DNA from: Convivina praedatoris
GTDB taxonomy: Bacteria; Bacillota; Bacilli; Lactobacillales; Lactobacillaceae
DNA length: 64,000 nt
Assembly (NCBI RefSeq): GCF_933208495.1
Contig: NZ_CAKOET010000004.1
Span: forward strand, 1-64,000
Reading direction: 5' to 3'
The position numbers and the translations under genes were made by a program. Shown piece by piece: positions 27,040-46,889 of the stretch. Below the pieces are notes generated by a model that saw nothing but the letters and a program-made list of their open reading frames with translations, made no database searches and was not told the DNA's origin. Within the stretch, counting starts at the first letter, position 1. Each line of letters begins with the position of its first letter.

Positions 27040-27327
27040 TAATAAACATTAGATTTTAATTAATATTAAAAACTATGATTGGAAATTTTAGTTAAATTTG
27101 TTTTTACAGAAAAGCTGGATGTTAATTCGTGAGAACCGGCCAAAAAAATTAACTAGATCGTGCCCATGAGTTGACCCCTGAAGTGATTAGGGGGTTCCGG
27201 TTACTAGCCCGTTATGCTAAAAGTTTTTTAACTTTACAAGCTAAAAGTGTCATTACTTTTAGAAATTGAGGTGGTACCACGTTATTGACGTCCTCTTGGA
27301 TTTAATTATCCAGGGGGACGTTTTTTA
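27040..27327 (+). promoter_or_regulatory. T-box leader of argCJBD
   Basis: The T-box motif GAGGTGGTACCACG lies at 27268-27281. The terminator ACGTCCTCTTGG/CCAGGGGGACGT plus TTTTTT lies at 27288-27327. Upstream, CCCCT-GAAGTGATT-AGGGG (about 27174-27192) may be the terminal hairpin of stem I, and AACCGG/CCGGTT encloses it. Uncharged tRNA should favour antitermination. I could not place the usual AGUA loop-E motif or assign a specifier codon with confidence; a CGT near 27159-27161 is one possibility. The 586-bp gap before argC holds this leader plus AT-rich sequence and nothing else obvious. Confidence 0.85.
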
Positions 27328-39491: not shown

Positions 39492-39738
39492 AAAGCGCCC
39501 CTTAGTTCTATGAACTAAAGGACGCCTGGACGCGGTACCACCTTATTTGTGCCATTAAACAATGACACCTCTCACGATCTAACAATCGTTGGCTCGGTAA
39601 TGGGAGCATCCAGCATGTGTTTGACGCATACACTCATAAGATACGTTCAACTTTCTAACAAGAATGTTTCACACTAACCAACATTTCACTGACTTGTCTG
39701 ATAAGTTTACTACTTCTTAATCAACGTTTTATTATTAA
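39492..39738 (-). promoter_or_regulatory. T-box leader, CGU (Arg) specifier
   Basis: The minus strand carries the T-box AAGGTGGTACCGCG (39531-39544) and a terminator GCGTCCTTTAGTTC/GAACTAAGGGGCGC then TTTTTT (39492-39528). Stem I is recognisable: AGAAGTA (loop E), a distal hairpin with AGTG, and the specifier side GAA-CGT-A. The following TCTTA pairs with upstream TAAGA. By alignment with the glyQS T-box, the specifier is CGT at 39643-39645, so the RNA should sense uncharged tRNA-Arg and control the transporter and argGHF. Confidence 0.9.
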
Positions 39739-43764: not shown

Positions 43765-44048
43765 AAAAAACCCGAGGACTTCTAGAAGAAATCCCCGGGA
43801 CGAATAATGGTCGCGTTACCACCCAGTTTTAAAGTGACATCACTGTCACCCACTCATTAAGTACAGCTTTACAGCGATACCTGTCCGCGATAACGGGCGT
43901 TCCCGAGTTCTGCTTGCTACACAATTGCAACTCACAAAACTAAAAGCTCCAAGACCATTTTCTAAGATGTTAGTTGGCTGAATTGCACCAATCATCAGCT
44001 CGCTAGGCAACTTTCATCAAATACTTATCTTTTCTTCACTTAAATAAT
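43765..44048 (-). promoter_or_regulatory. T-box leader, AUG (Met) specifier
   Basis: T-box variant GGGTGGTAACGCG at 43812-43824 (minus strand). The terminator CCCGGGGATTTC/GAAGTCCTCGGG then TTTTTT lies at 43765-43799. In stem I, AAGTA faces GAAA-ATG-G followed by TCTT, which can pair with upstream AAGA. The specifier ATG is at 43956-43958. The RNA should sense uncharged tRNA-Met and switch on the SAM hydrolase-ECF operon. Confidence 0.88.
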
Positions 44049-44097: not shown

Positions 44098-45261
44098 TCA
44101 AATCATTTCTAAGTGCAAAGCCCCCGACTTAATCCAGCCAATCTTACGCATAATCCGATAGGCAATAAAGGAAACTATCACTGGAATCGCTACACCACAG
44201 GCCATATAGGCAATAAACATGTTCATACTCTTACCAAATAAAGCTAAAGGAACAATGAAAGAGTTAAAGCCAATCCCAGCCATTGCAAACGGTACAGAGA
44301 CATGGAACATGATGGTTGCCATCGGTGCGGCAATCGCTGCGCCAATCATTGGTGGAATTAATAACATTGGATTTTTAATAATGTTAGGGAACTGAATTTT
44401 AGGGGTCACAATTCCTTGGGCAATCGTTGCTCCAATTTTGTTTTCTTGGAATGACATTGCTGGATAACTAACAAAAACAGCCGTAGTTCCAATCAAAATT
44501 GCACCCGATGCAGCTGAGGAAGTCACCCCTGTAGCACCAATTGCTACTGCTAAAGCAGCGGCTGAAGCCGGTGTCATCGTCATTGCCCCAAAGACCATCG
44601 CCACACAGGCAGTGCCTAGAATCGGATTGACATTGACGCTAGCGGTAATCATCTCCCCCATGCTAACCAAGATGGGCGTCGTAACAATTGCTAAATAATA
44701 ACCAGCAACCGTCCCAACAATCGTCGTCAATGCCGGGACAATCACCATGTCCAAGGGTGTTTTCCCACTTAACCAGTTACCAAACAAAACGGCAATCAAG
44801 CCGGCCATTACCGCTGAAATCGGCTGTCCGGTGGTCATAATTGCTGATCCAGGAATCTGAGTGCCAGCAAAACCAGTCGCCGTTACCGCTTTTAAGCTTT
44901 GACTAGTGAAAAAAACGGCATTGGCACCAACCGTTGAAGCGGCCATCGCTGAAAACATGACCATCGTATTGGACTTCATTTGTGAGGCAATCGCAGCGCC
45001 AAAGGCCGCTGGCAACATTATTTTAGTAATCGCACCCAATTGAATCATTGGTGCCCAGTGAATAAAACCGGCGATAGTTTGCAGCAACAATCCCATCCCC
45101 AAAGTCACCAAAATGGCATTGGAAACTGCGGCCGAAACGTTATAAACGATTTCACGCACTGATTCTTTTTTAGGTGCAACAGACCCGATAGCAGTCTTAG
45201 TCGCTTCTTCAAAATCCTTAATATCAATGTTTTCAGTTACTGGTTGTCGTGTATTATCCAT
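44098..45261 (-). CDS. PTS EIIC-like membrane protein (PfoR/COG3641 type)
   Basis: 387 residues and about ten hydrophobic segments. It matches the PTS_EIIC_2/PfoR family (LGMGLLLQTIAGF, MTPASAAALAVAIGATG). Despite the name, no EIIA, EIIB or HPr-phosphorylated domain is encoded nearby, so phosphotransferase activity is not supported. The transported compound is unknown. AAGGAG lies 6 nt before the ATG. It is preceded by a strong promoter, a 23-codon leader peptide and a terminator, which suggests control by attenuation. Confidence 0.75.
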   Translation of the reverse strand: MDNTRQPVTENIDIKDFEEATKTAIGSVAPKKESVREIVYNVSAAVSNAILVTLGMGLLLQTIAGFIHWAPMIQLGAITKIMLPAAFGAAIASQMKSNTMVMFSAMAASTVGANAVFFTSQSLKAVTATGFAGTQIPGSAIMTTGQPISAVMAGLIAVLFGNWLSGKTPLDMVIVPALTTIVGTVAGYYLAIVTTPILVSMGEMITASVNVNPILGTACVAMVFGAMTMTPASAAALAVAIGATGVTSSAASGAILIGTTAVFVSYPAMSFQENKIGATIAQGIVTPKIQFPNIIKNPMLLIPPMIGAAIAAPMATIMFHVSVPFAMAGIGFNSFIVPLALFGKSMNMFIAYMACGVAIPVIVSFIAYRIMRKIGWIKSGALHLEMI

Positions 45262-45291: not shown

Positions 45292-45494
45292 AAAAAAGCC
45301 CTAACAAGCGAACTTGTTAGGGCAAAAAATTTAAGCTACCTAACCAGCTGCTAAGAATTGAATTCCTAGCAACCGGCACAAAAACCAACTTACTAGGAGT
45401 TACCGAGCAAGCTGAGCAAGAGGTTGATTGACTTAGTTGATGACACTACTTTAAATGTTGACATAACAATTCCCCCTGCTTGTTTTTTTATGAT
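45292..45494 (-). promoter_or_regulatory. Transcription attenuator with leucine-rich leader peptide
   Basis: Elements on the minus strand: the leader ORF (45393-45464); region 1 TCCTAG at its stop; region 2/3 GCTAGGAA/TTCTTAGC (about 45350-45371); an antiterminator GTTAGG-GC/GC-CCTAAC (about 45316-45344); and terminator GCCCTAACAAG/CTTGTTAGGGC with a TTCG loop then TTTTTT (45292-45323). Region 1 can pair with CTAGGA of region 2, which would free region 3 for the antiterminator. This is the classical layout of ribosome-mediated attenuation. Confidence 0.75.
45393..45464 (-). CDS. Leader peptide (23 aa), Leu-rich
   Basis: A 23-residue ORF with a strong RBS (AGGGGG, 7 nt before ATG) between a consensus promoter and a terminator. 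The second half reads INLLLSLLGNS, with five Leu codons in six (CTC TTG CTC AGC TTG CTC), followed by TAG. The position, RBS and Leu run are typical of attenuator leader peptides. No function of the peptide itself is implied. Confidence 0.7.
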   Translation of the reverse strand: MSTFKVVSSTKSINLLLSLLGNS

Positions 45495-45500
45495 GACTTC

Positions 45501-45529
45501 ATTATATAAATTAGAATTTAATTAGTCAA
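45501..45529 (-). promoter_or_regulatory. Promoter of the PfoR-type gene
   Basis: Minus strand TTGACT (45524-45529), 17-bp spacer, TATAAT (45501-45506). Confidence 0.85.
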
Positions 45530-45558
45530 TACTTATTTTTTAATTTTATTCTCATAAT

Positions 45559-45725
45559 AAAAAACGTACCGACTTTGTCGATACGTCCGGACTGCGAACA
45601 ATATTCGCAGACACTTTCCGTGGCCGAGGCCATCAGATCTGTGTCGCCCTTGTTTCCTTTACAAGGGCGACACGATCTGTTGAGTATTAAATTCTAACAA
45701 ATCGTATCACCCCCTTTCCTAGAAT
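45559..45725 (-). ncRNA. Multi-hairpin RNA ending in a terminator, unknown class
   Basis: On the minus strand, AGGAAAGGGGG is followed by a possible 13-codon ORF starting with TTG (45659-45700). Then come a 19-bp hairpin with one bulge (CAGATC-GTGTCGCCCTTGT paired to ACAAGGGCGACAC-A-GATCTG, 45634-45679), TGGCC/GGCCA, CTGCGAA/TTCGCAG, and a terminator ACGTATCGAC/GTCGGTACGT plus Ts (45559-45586). A TATAAT box sits at 45732-45737. It could be a small RNA, a riboswitch remnant, or a second attenuator stacked before the PfoR gene. Confidence 0.55.
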
Positions 45726-45731
45726 ATAGAT

Positions 45732-45737
45732 ATTATA
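45732..45737 (-). promoter_or_regulatory. -10 box for the multi-hairpin RNA
   Basis: TATAAT on the minus strand, about 10 bp before the G-rich RBS-like stretch. No clear -35. Beyond it, 45741-46056 is AT-rich and shows nothing else I can name. Confidence 0.45.
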
Positions 45738-46056: not shown

Positions 46057-46889
46057 TTGAAACAAGATGAACGTAAGTTTCTAGGAGTTTTAACAATTGT
46101 ATTTGGTGGAATTGGCTTAGCTTTGTCATGGATTCCGATTTTTGCGATGTCGACTTCAATCGTTGATTTGGTTGCAAATACCTTCGCTTTGTCATGGATT
46201 CCAATTATTAGGAACGTTGCTTTCTTCTTTGGAATAGTAGCTTTAATTTGGGGGATTATTGCACTATTCATTAATAGAAAGAACAAGAAGACACTAGCTC
46301 TAGCTATGATTGGAACTATTATAGCTGAAGCTTCTATTTCACTAGTATTAATCAGCACTAGTACTACTGCTGATTTTGCTTGCGTTATTTCTATCACTTT
46401 TTTAACAGTAGCATTAGGCACTCAGTTCACCTATTCTCACGCTTTGAATAAGGCTACTGATCAGATTAACAGGTCTACTGATAGTTCAAGCAAATCAAAA
46501 AAGATATAAAAACATATCATGTCGGAGATACTGTTGCTTATGAGAACGCTGAATATAAGGTCAACAAAGTTGATATAATTGATGGTGCCCAATATACAAA
46601 GCCTGATAACGGTAAAAATATGTAATCGTTAATATTACTACTACAAACAAATCAGATAGTAAGACAGATTATAACCCTACTTACTTTGCTATTGATAAAA
46701 ATGGTAAACAACCTGATGGTACTATCAGTGGTCCAACTAGCGTTGAAAAACATCATAGTGGTTCATTGGATCTAATGCTAGTGTTACCGGTAAACTATGG
46801 GCGAGACTTCGCCAGAAAGTAAATTAGCGCTTGTATATAACGAATCTTCTAAGGACACAGATGGTGCGTTTAAGATTAATTTGAACTAA
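46057..46889 (+). pseudogene. Frameshifted membrane protein with DUF4352 domain
   Basis: The intact part is a 150-residue frame (TTG start, GGGAGAAAGG before it) with about four helices and an RKNKKTLALAMIG loop. After its stop at 46507-46509, a DUF4352-like domain continues in pieces: YHVGDTVAYENAEYKVNKVD to a stop at 46623; YVIVNITTTNKSDSKTDYNP in another frame; then NASVTGKLW; then ETSPESKLALVYNESSKD to a stop at 46887-46889. About four single-base shifts are needed to restore one protein of roughly 275 residues. The N-terminal part also repeats ALSWIPI 66 bp apart. It is either a decayed gene or a cluster of assembly indels. Confidence 0.75.

Follow-up and report, generated by a model that had tools for sequence, protein, structure and literature searches.

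A putative leucine leader-peptide attenuator upstream of a PTS_EIIC_2 (PF13303) membrane protein gene in Convivina and its relatives

Background

Why would a gene whose product is annotated as a sugar phosphotransferase (PTS) component be preceded by a leader encoding a run of leucines, and what does such a leader say about the function of that product? The question is raised by the window analysed here, a 64-kb (64,000 nucleotide) stretch of DNA from Convivina praedatoris, in which an element at positions 45292-45529 (minus strand) lies upstream of the gene for a 387 amino acid membrane protein (44098..45261, minus strand). The protein belongs to the PTS_EIIC_2 or PfoR-type family (PF13303; E = 3.8e-65), which it matches over its full length with 220.6 bits, against a curated cut-off of 28.9. 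A sequence-only reading of the window had interpreted the element as a leucine attenuator and proposed that the protein handles a leucine-related or peptide compound rather than a sugar. No published function for the PF13303 PTS_EIIC_2 or PfoR-type proteins was found in the literature searched, the protein has no match to a solved structure by sequence or profile, and the structure predicted for it from thirteen sequences (pLDDT 41) is not interpretable.

Attenuators with leucine leaders have been described in Gram-positive bacteria, and the kind of mechanism considered here is therefore known as well. The ilv-leu operon of Staphylococcus aureus has a Leu-rich leader attenuator, with reporter data consistent with a leucine response, and the leader resembles that of the window in its short Leu-rich open reading frame (ORF), intrinsic terminator and proposed alternative pairing (PMC5794164). 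Its target is branched-chain amino acid (BCAA) biosynthesis, however, whereas that in the window is a PTS_EIIC_2 membrane protein, and the two are likened by layout. A BCAA leader peptide has also been predicted before the biosynthetic operon of Lactococcus lactis (cited in PMC5794164); as described in that citation, it shares with the window leader its origin in a lactic acid bacterium and its BCAA codons, but belongs to another bacterial family and has another target. Nothing relevant to Leuconostoc leucine attenuation, PfoR or PTS_EIIC_2, and no attenuator of the present family on PTS_EIIC_2 genes, with Leu and Ile/Val paralogue versions, was found in the literature searched. Both the RNA family and the functional assignment thus look new.

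The promoter and leader ORF

The element has a sigma-70 type promoter, TTGACT-17 nt-TATAAT (45501..45529, minus strand), which matches 11/12 consensus positions and is top-ranked among ten in 3 kb. A Shine-Dalgarno sequence, GGGGG (45472..45476, minus strand), is located 7 nt 5' of the leader ATG, and the corresponding ribosome binding site (RBS) in Convivina intestini is AGGAGG. The leader ORF, MSTFKVVSSTKSINLLLSLLGNS, comprises 23 codons (45393..45464, minus strand), has homologous leaders at related loci, and includes the leucine cluster CTC TTG CTC AGC TTG CTC, followed by GGT AAC TCC TAG. The consensus promoter, the RBS and the 23-codon leader with its leucine cluster are all present as the sequence-only reading had described them.

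The leucine run is beyond chance. It has a probability of P = 0.001 for a random 23 amino acid peptide of the same composition, and of the 156 short ORFs in the window that follow an RBS, this is the only one with at least five leucines in six residues. Three of the five leucine codons in the cluster are CTC, the rarest leucine codon in the window (3.9 % of Leu). The element thus has what is typical of an attenuator: a short ORF served by an RBS, in which codons for the amino acid presumed to be sensed are clustered.

Competing helices of the leader RNA

The 205-nt leader folds at -71.3 kcal/mol, compared to -43.3 ± 3.5 kcal/mol for shuffled sequences (z = -8.1), and four helices (P1 to P4, all on the minus strand) can be distinguished. 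The first, P1 (45364..45398), pairs 45398-45385 with 45376-45364 in 13 bp with one bulge and overlaps the stop codon, its first strand being located at and after that codon. The second, P2 (45343..45377), pairs 45377-45362 with 45358-45343 in 16 bp and is mutually exclusive with P1, with which it shares the second strand of the latter. The antiterminator, P3 (45311..45349), is an interrupted helix of 12 bp between 45349-45335 and 45323-45311; it overlaps the 3' arm of P2, extends beyond it, and is exclusive with the intrinsic terminator, P4, the 5' arm of which it occupies. The terminator, GCCCTAACAAG-TTCG-CTTGTTAGGGC followed by T6, is located at 45298..45323 and has a stem of 11 bp. The pairings claimed in the sequence-only reading are all recovered as parts of these longer helices, with TCCTAG/CTAGGA forming the core of P1, GCTAGGAA/TTCTTAGC that of P2 and GTTAGG/CCTAAC a part of P3, while the TTCG-loop terminator is found as proposed (45323-45298).

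Comparison among related leaders shows that P1 is paired in 93 % of cells, compared to 20-59 % in slid controls, with both bases changed in four pairs, and that the P1 pairs beyond P2 (columns 44-86 and 45-85) vary on both sides. Similarly, P2 is paired in 94.5 % of cells, with five pairs changed on both sides (slid controls 4-53 %), and P4 is kept in relatives with compensatory changes. The columns of P3 are unalignable across genera, and this helix was identified by folding only, with counterparts folded in 22 aligned leaders. The leader thus incorporates mutually exclusive anti-antiterminator, antiterminator and terminator helices, with covariation in all but the antiterminator. Competing pairing was further scored as the capacity of one strand to pair well both upstream and downstream, against 100 shuffles per leader. 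The score of the window leader was reached by 0/100 shuffles, and all 36 leaders compared scored above their own shuffle mean, with 30/36 reached by 0/100 shuffles and the remaining six by between one and ten.

No Rfam family matches the element at gathering score, the weak matches being to unrelated small RNAs, snoRNAs and microRNAs. It is therefore distinct from the amino-acid leaders in Rfam and from the T-box (RF00230), which are likewise amino-acid-responsive 5' leaders. A T-box on the window leader was considered and rejected, as neither a T-box sequence nor a stem I specifier loop was matched. T-box leaders do occur elsewhere in the window, before an operon coding for a SAM-hydrolase-like protein and an ECF transporter (43793-44045, minus strand), before a glutamine-type ABC transporter (39515-39733, minus strand) and before argCJ (27066-27298, plus strand).

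Two further features were observed near the element. Just upstream of the leader, positions 45554-45735 (minus strand) have strong structure with long hairpins and their own promoter-like and terminator-like sequences; this region is 95 % conserved in C. intestini and 80 % conserved over 105 nt in one other genome, and is possibly a small RNA. At 46057-46889 (plus strand), small ORFs of no known family occur beside a DUF805 protein and look like decayed or fast-evolving genes.

Conservation of the leader among relatives

Orthologues of the PTS_EIIC_2 gene in Convivina, Fructobacillus, Leuconostoc, Periweissella and other genera are preceded by homologous leaders, with the helices and the terminator. 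The closest comparison is with C. intestini DSM 28795, where the protein shares 97 % identity with the window protein and the leader peptide is identical. Across the aligned leaders, leucine occupies 91/92 of the Leu positions in the peptide core (LL-x-[N/S]-LL), while the codons switch among TTG, CTC, CTT and CTA, and identity in the core is 85 % versus 20 % in the N-terminal part. Since leucine is kept while its codons alternate, selection appears to act on the amino acid and not on the nucleotides. The distance from the last leucine of the cluster to the first base of P1 is 9 nt in every aligned leader apart from those of two species, where it is 10 nt, even though the position of the stop codon varies, between 4 nt before that base and 3 nt beyond it. 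The leader at locus L003 has one extra leucine, 3 nt from P1. The spacing between codon cluster and switch helix is thus fixed, as would be expected of an attenuator.

In nearly all leaders (e.g. window 45393-45425, minus strand), two branched-chain groups are separated by a polar residue, usually N or S, and tRNA-limited stalling alone does not explain why it is kept in both Leu and Ile leaders.

Covarying pairs and conserved Leu codons, the features to be looked for upstream of homologues, were both found. An attenuator would have been contradicted by homologues in which the ORF, its Leu run or the stem competition was missing; in the genera of the Leuconostoc group all three are kept and the stems covary. 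Beyond this clade, sampling of PF13303 genes turned up neither such a leader nor a T-box, either in other families or in most of the remaining Lactobacillaceae, so that most sampled members of the PTS_EIIC_2 or PfoR-type family differ from the window gene in this respect. The leader is clade-specific and its association with leucine should therefore not be extended to the PfoR family as a whole.

Energetics and proposed mechanism

In 22/22 leaders the antiterminator is stronger when P1 is enforced than when P2 is enforced, with values for the window RNA of -6.0 and -0.9 kcal/mol, respectively. The equilibrium energies favour P2 over P1, by approximately 6 kcal/mol in the window RNA and in most relatives by several kcal/mol, and the combined energy of P1 and P3 in the window RNA is similar to that of P2 alone. 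The lock is only partial, as formation of P2 in the window RNA still leaves room for a 6-bp core of P3. On average, simulation of the ribosome at the leucine cluster versus the stop codon agreed in direction with the prediction (+0.17; p = 0.0009, with sequences that are not independent), while for the window RNA the direction was opposite at equilibrium (0.42 vs 0.73). Considering that P2 outcompetes P1 in equilibrium energy, the switch must act co-transcriptionally, and would need P1 to form first as the RNA is made, which is plausible because the P1 strands are the first to emerge.

The direction of the switch and its response to leucine are what we infer from this layout. When charged tRNA-Leu is plentiful, the ribosome would pass the leucine cluster to the stop codon and cover the 5' arm of P1, whereupon P2 could form, the antiterminator P3 would be weakened and the terminator P4 would end transcription. 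When leucine is short, the ribosome would stall in the leucine cluster, at least 9 nt upstream of P1, leaving P1 to form on the emerging RNA and to take the strand needed by P2; with P2 blocked, P3 could sequester the terminator's 5' arm, and transcription would continue into the gene. The element is thus very probably a ribosome-mediated leucine attenuator, judging by its parts and their conservation, and the gene downstream would belong to a BCAA regulon.

A leader class shared with other BCAA genes

A covariance model of the leaders was searched in 398 genomes of the family, with matches of E > ~1e-5 in other genera taken as chance unless a leader was seen. One such match (L077; E 2.4e-5) was on inspection not a leader and was discarded, and another (L078; E 2.9e-5) is the leader of a leuA gene. 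Besides those of the PTS_EIIC_2 genes, the model detected leaders before leuABCD in Leuconostoc (e.g. MRNQASVQMNKTNSALLLNLLRQTLAS) and in one further genus. The leuABCD operon of the window genome is preceded by the leader MQTAQMNIINNQSSALLSLLRYS in the same position and with a similar RNA; this leader was unreported by the covariance model and its pairing score is reached by 10/100 shuffles. The presence of the leader class on leuABCD anchors it to leucine and, together with the conserved ORF, Leu run and covarying stems, supports the attenuator proposed in the sequence-only reading.

Related leaders with other codon runs were also found. A second PTS_EIIC_2 protein, approximately 43 % identical to that of the window, is encoded in Convivina, Leuconostoc, Periweissella, Fructobacillus and others, and its gene has an Ile/Val-run leader (MKTLSKSQLNQIIVISPIVIII in the window genome, MKSLSSTNFTQVIKINVVIII in Leuconostoc and MSYLNANNFTAIIVVNIIVIII in L. 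fallax). A branched-chain aminotransferase gene, identified with NCBIfam, adjoins this Ile-type or a mixed-type paralogue at ten loci. The Leu-type gene is duplicated in tandem in Fructobacillus, and one copy has an Ile leader, MNKLMQMNQAQSQIIIISLQTN, whose P1/P2 part resembles that of the Leu leader. BrnQ is a recognised family of BCAA transporters, and brnQ of the window genome is preceded by an Ile-run leader, MYNYLANHTEIIISIIIP, while ilvD of C. intestini is preceded by MQVLIVLIIVILVVILQRFCVDN. In the protein tree the genes with Leu leaders form one group (support 85/97), and leader type tracks the tree. The proposed regulon would include leuABCD and the window PTS_EIIC_2 gene under Leu-type leaders, and the second PTS_EIIC_2 gene and brnQ under Ile/Val-type leaders. 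The literature searched yielded no account of such a regulon, built on leader peptides, for the Leuconostoc group.

Two further sets of leaders were observed in Leuconostoc. Ile/Val/Leu leaders with the same RNA layout (L074 874-1025 and L093 ~850-1005, both on the plus strand; MKITIKKSNNFAIVNLLLIC and MQKNIENSNYSIIINLLLR) are found ahead of an HTH-type regulator and an Fe-S assembly (suf) operon, as though the Fe-S supply of LeuCD and IlvD were governed by BCAA. Downstream of leuABCD, a Leu-run leader (MHKTMKQVNHSLLYLLLN) and a terminator (L080 6084-6225, L075 4427-4568 and L076 6866-7013, all on the minus strand) are located ahead of a gene for a NiCoT-like transporter with the motif FGLRHAFDVDHIAAIDN.

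The PTS_EIIC_2 proteins and their probable substrates

Given its place in the BCAA leader regulon, the window protein is most likely a membrane transporter and not a sugar IIC, its cargo being either leucine itself or one of its precursors (e.g. 2-ketoisocaproate or 2-hydroxyisocaproate). The Fructobacillus, L. fallax and Periweissella genomes sampled lack LeuA and IlvD, yet the Leu leader is still present; the response there can therefore serve only uptake or salvage. Considering the leaders shared with leucine synthesis and BCAA uptake, the split between Leu and Ile/Val versions and the retention of the system without LeuA and IlvD, the simplest reading would be that these PTS_EIIC_2 proteins import BCAA or their precursors. 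Of the earlier proposal, the leucine-related and non-sugar part is strengthened by the Ile-run leaders of the paralogue and of brnQ and by the adjoining aminotransferase genes, while nothing points to a peptide.

The possibility that PTS_EIIC_2 stands in for a missing BrnQ was rejected, as BrnQ is encoded in 155/201 genomes of the family, including that of the window (two copies), and PTS_EIIC_2 is therefore no simple replacement for known BCAA uptake. The presence of BrnQ, together with the genes that neighbour some PF13303 genes, makes branched-chain 2-oxo and 2-hydroxy acids serious alternatives to the amino acids themselves. As a refinement of the attenuator rather than a rival to it, the proteins could tentatively be regarded as carriers of these acids, which would be transaminated to BCAA, and we rate this at somewhat short of an even chance. 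It fits the amino-acid uptake already covered by BrnQ, the persistence of the system in genomes without LeuA and IlvD, and the aminotransferase gene found after the Ile-type paralogue and also after one PF13303 gene of another family (L174). In some other Bacilli, PF13303 genes adjoin genes for a D-lactate/2-hydroxyacid dehydrogenase, a PanE-type reductase, an L-LDH or a 2-oxo-acid dehydrogenase. Such neighbours occur at 10/30 of the best-scoring loci, which were picked by score and are not independent, but at only 1/20 loci drawn one per genome from other taxa, so that the association is lineage-specific and a universal link between PF13303 and these enzymes was rejected, the neighbours being given little weight. 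The Leu-type gene of the window itself has no such neighbour.

A third PTS_EIIC_2 gene of the genome (L161 386-2595; G000:C2:276153-277235), for which no leader was found, follows a D-2-hydroxyacid dehydrogenase gene, and members of both families are likewise neighbours in some other Bacilli.

Allowing for both kinds of substrate, we lean, with moderate confidence, towards a clade of PTS_EIIC_2 proteins that would transport BCAA or branched-chain 2-oxo/2-hydroxy acids, in which Leu and Ile/Val paralogues can be distinguished and the codons of the leader name the branch.

Alternative interpretations

The kept N or S could also point to nascent-peptide arrest, whereby the conserved [BCAA]3-[N/S]-[BCAA]3 peptide would stall the ribosome on a small molecule and not on uncharged tRNA-Leu. 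This residue lies between the hydrophobic groups in 23/23 Leu leaders and in most Ile leaders, for which codon counting is insufficient. However, the third core position accepts Leu, Arg or Gly, the swap from Leu to Ile/Val in the paralogues and brnQ changes the residues while the RNA layout is kept, and the leucine biosynthesis genes bear the same leader, which fits better with amino-acid sensing. Arrest is thus considered improbable as the basis of the switch.

It appears equally doubtful that the names PfoR and EIIC are to be taken literally, with the protein acting as a regulator or as part of a sugar PTS and its BCAA control reflecting general starvation signalling. PF13303 is indeed named for a PTS EIIC, and one sampled relative also has a weak match to PF02378. 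Nevertheless, no EIIA or EIIB partner genes are present among the flanking genes scanned, as had been stated in the sequence-only reading, and leucine versus isoleucine/valine is read before different paralogues, which a general starvation signal would not need.

That the helices arise by chance from a GC-rich terminator and repeats, around an ORF without a regulatory role, is highly improbable, for even though P1 and P2 share a strand, so that their conservation is partly coupled, and the sequences are related, P1 pairs beyond P2 change on both sides, the peptide core is conserved at the amino acid level and the same layout recurs in 36 leaders in several gene contexts.

Conclusions

The leaders described here outline a BCAA regulon in the Leuconostoc group that would be governed by leader peptides and not by T-boxes, and would include leuABCD, two PTS_EIIC_2 genes, brnQ and probably ilvD, with the suf operon and a NiCoT-like gene as additional members in Leuconostoc. 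Used as a functional label, attenuation ties an uncharacterised membrane family to leucine and, through its paralogue, to isoleucine and valine. If this is true, leader peptides would provide a readable clue to the substrate in a family annotated as sugar PTS, and their codons may offer a concrete and cheap substrate test for the widespread PF13303 family.
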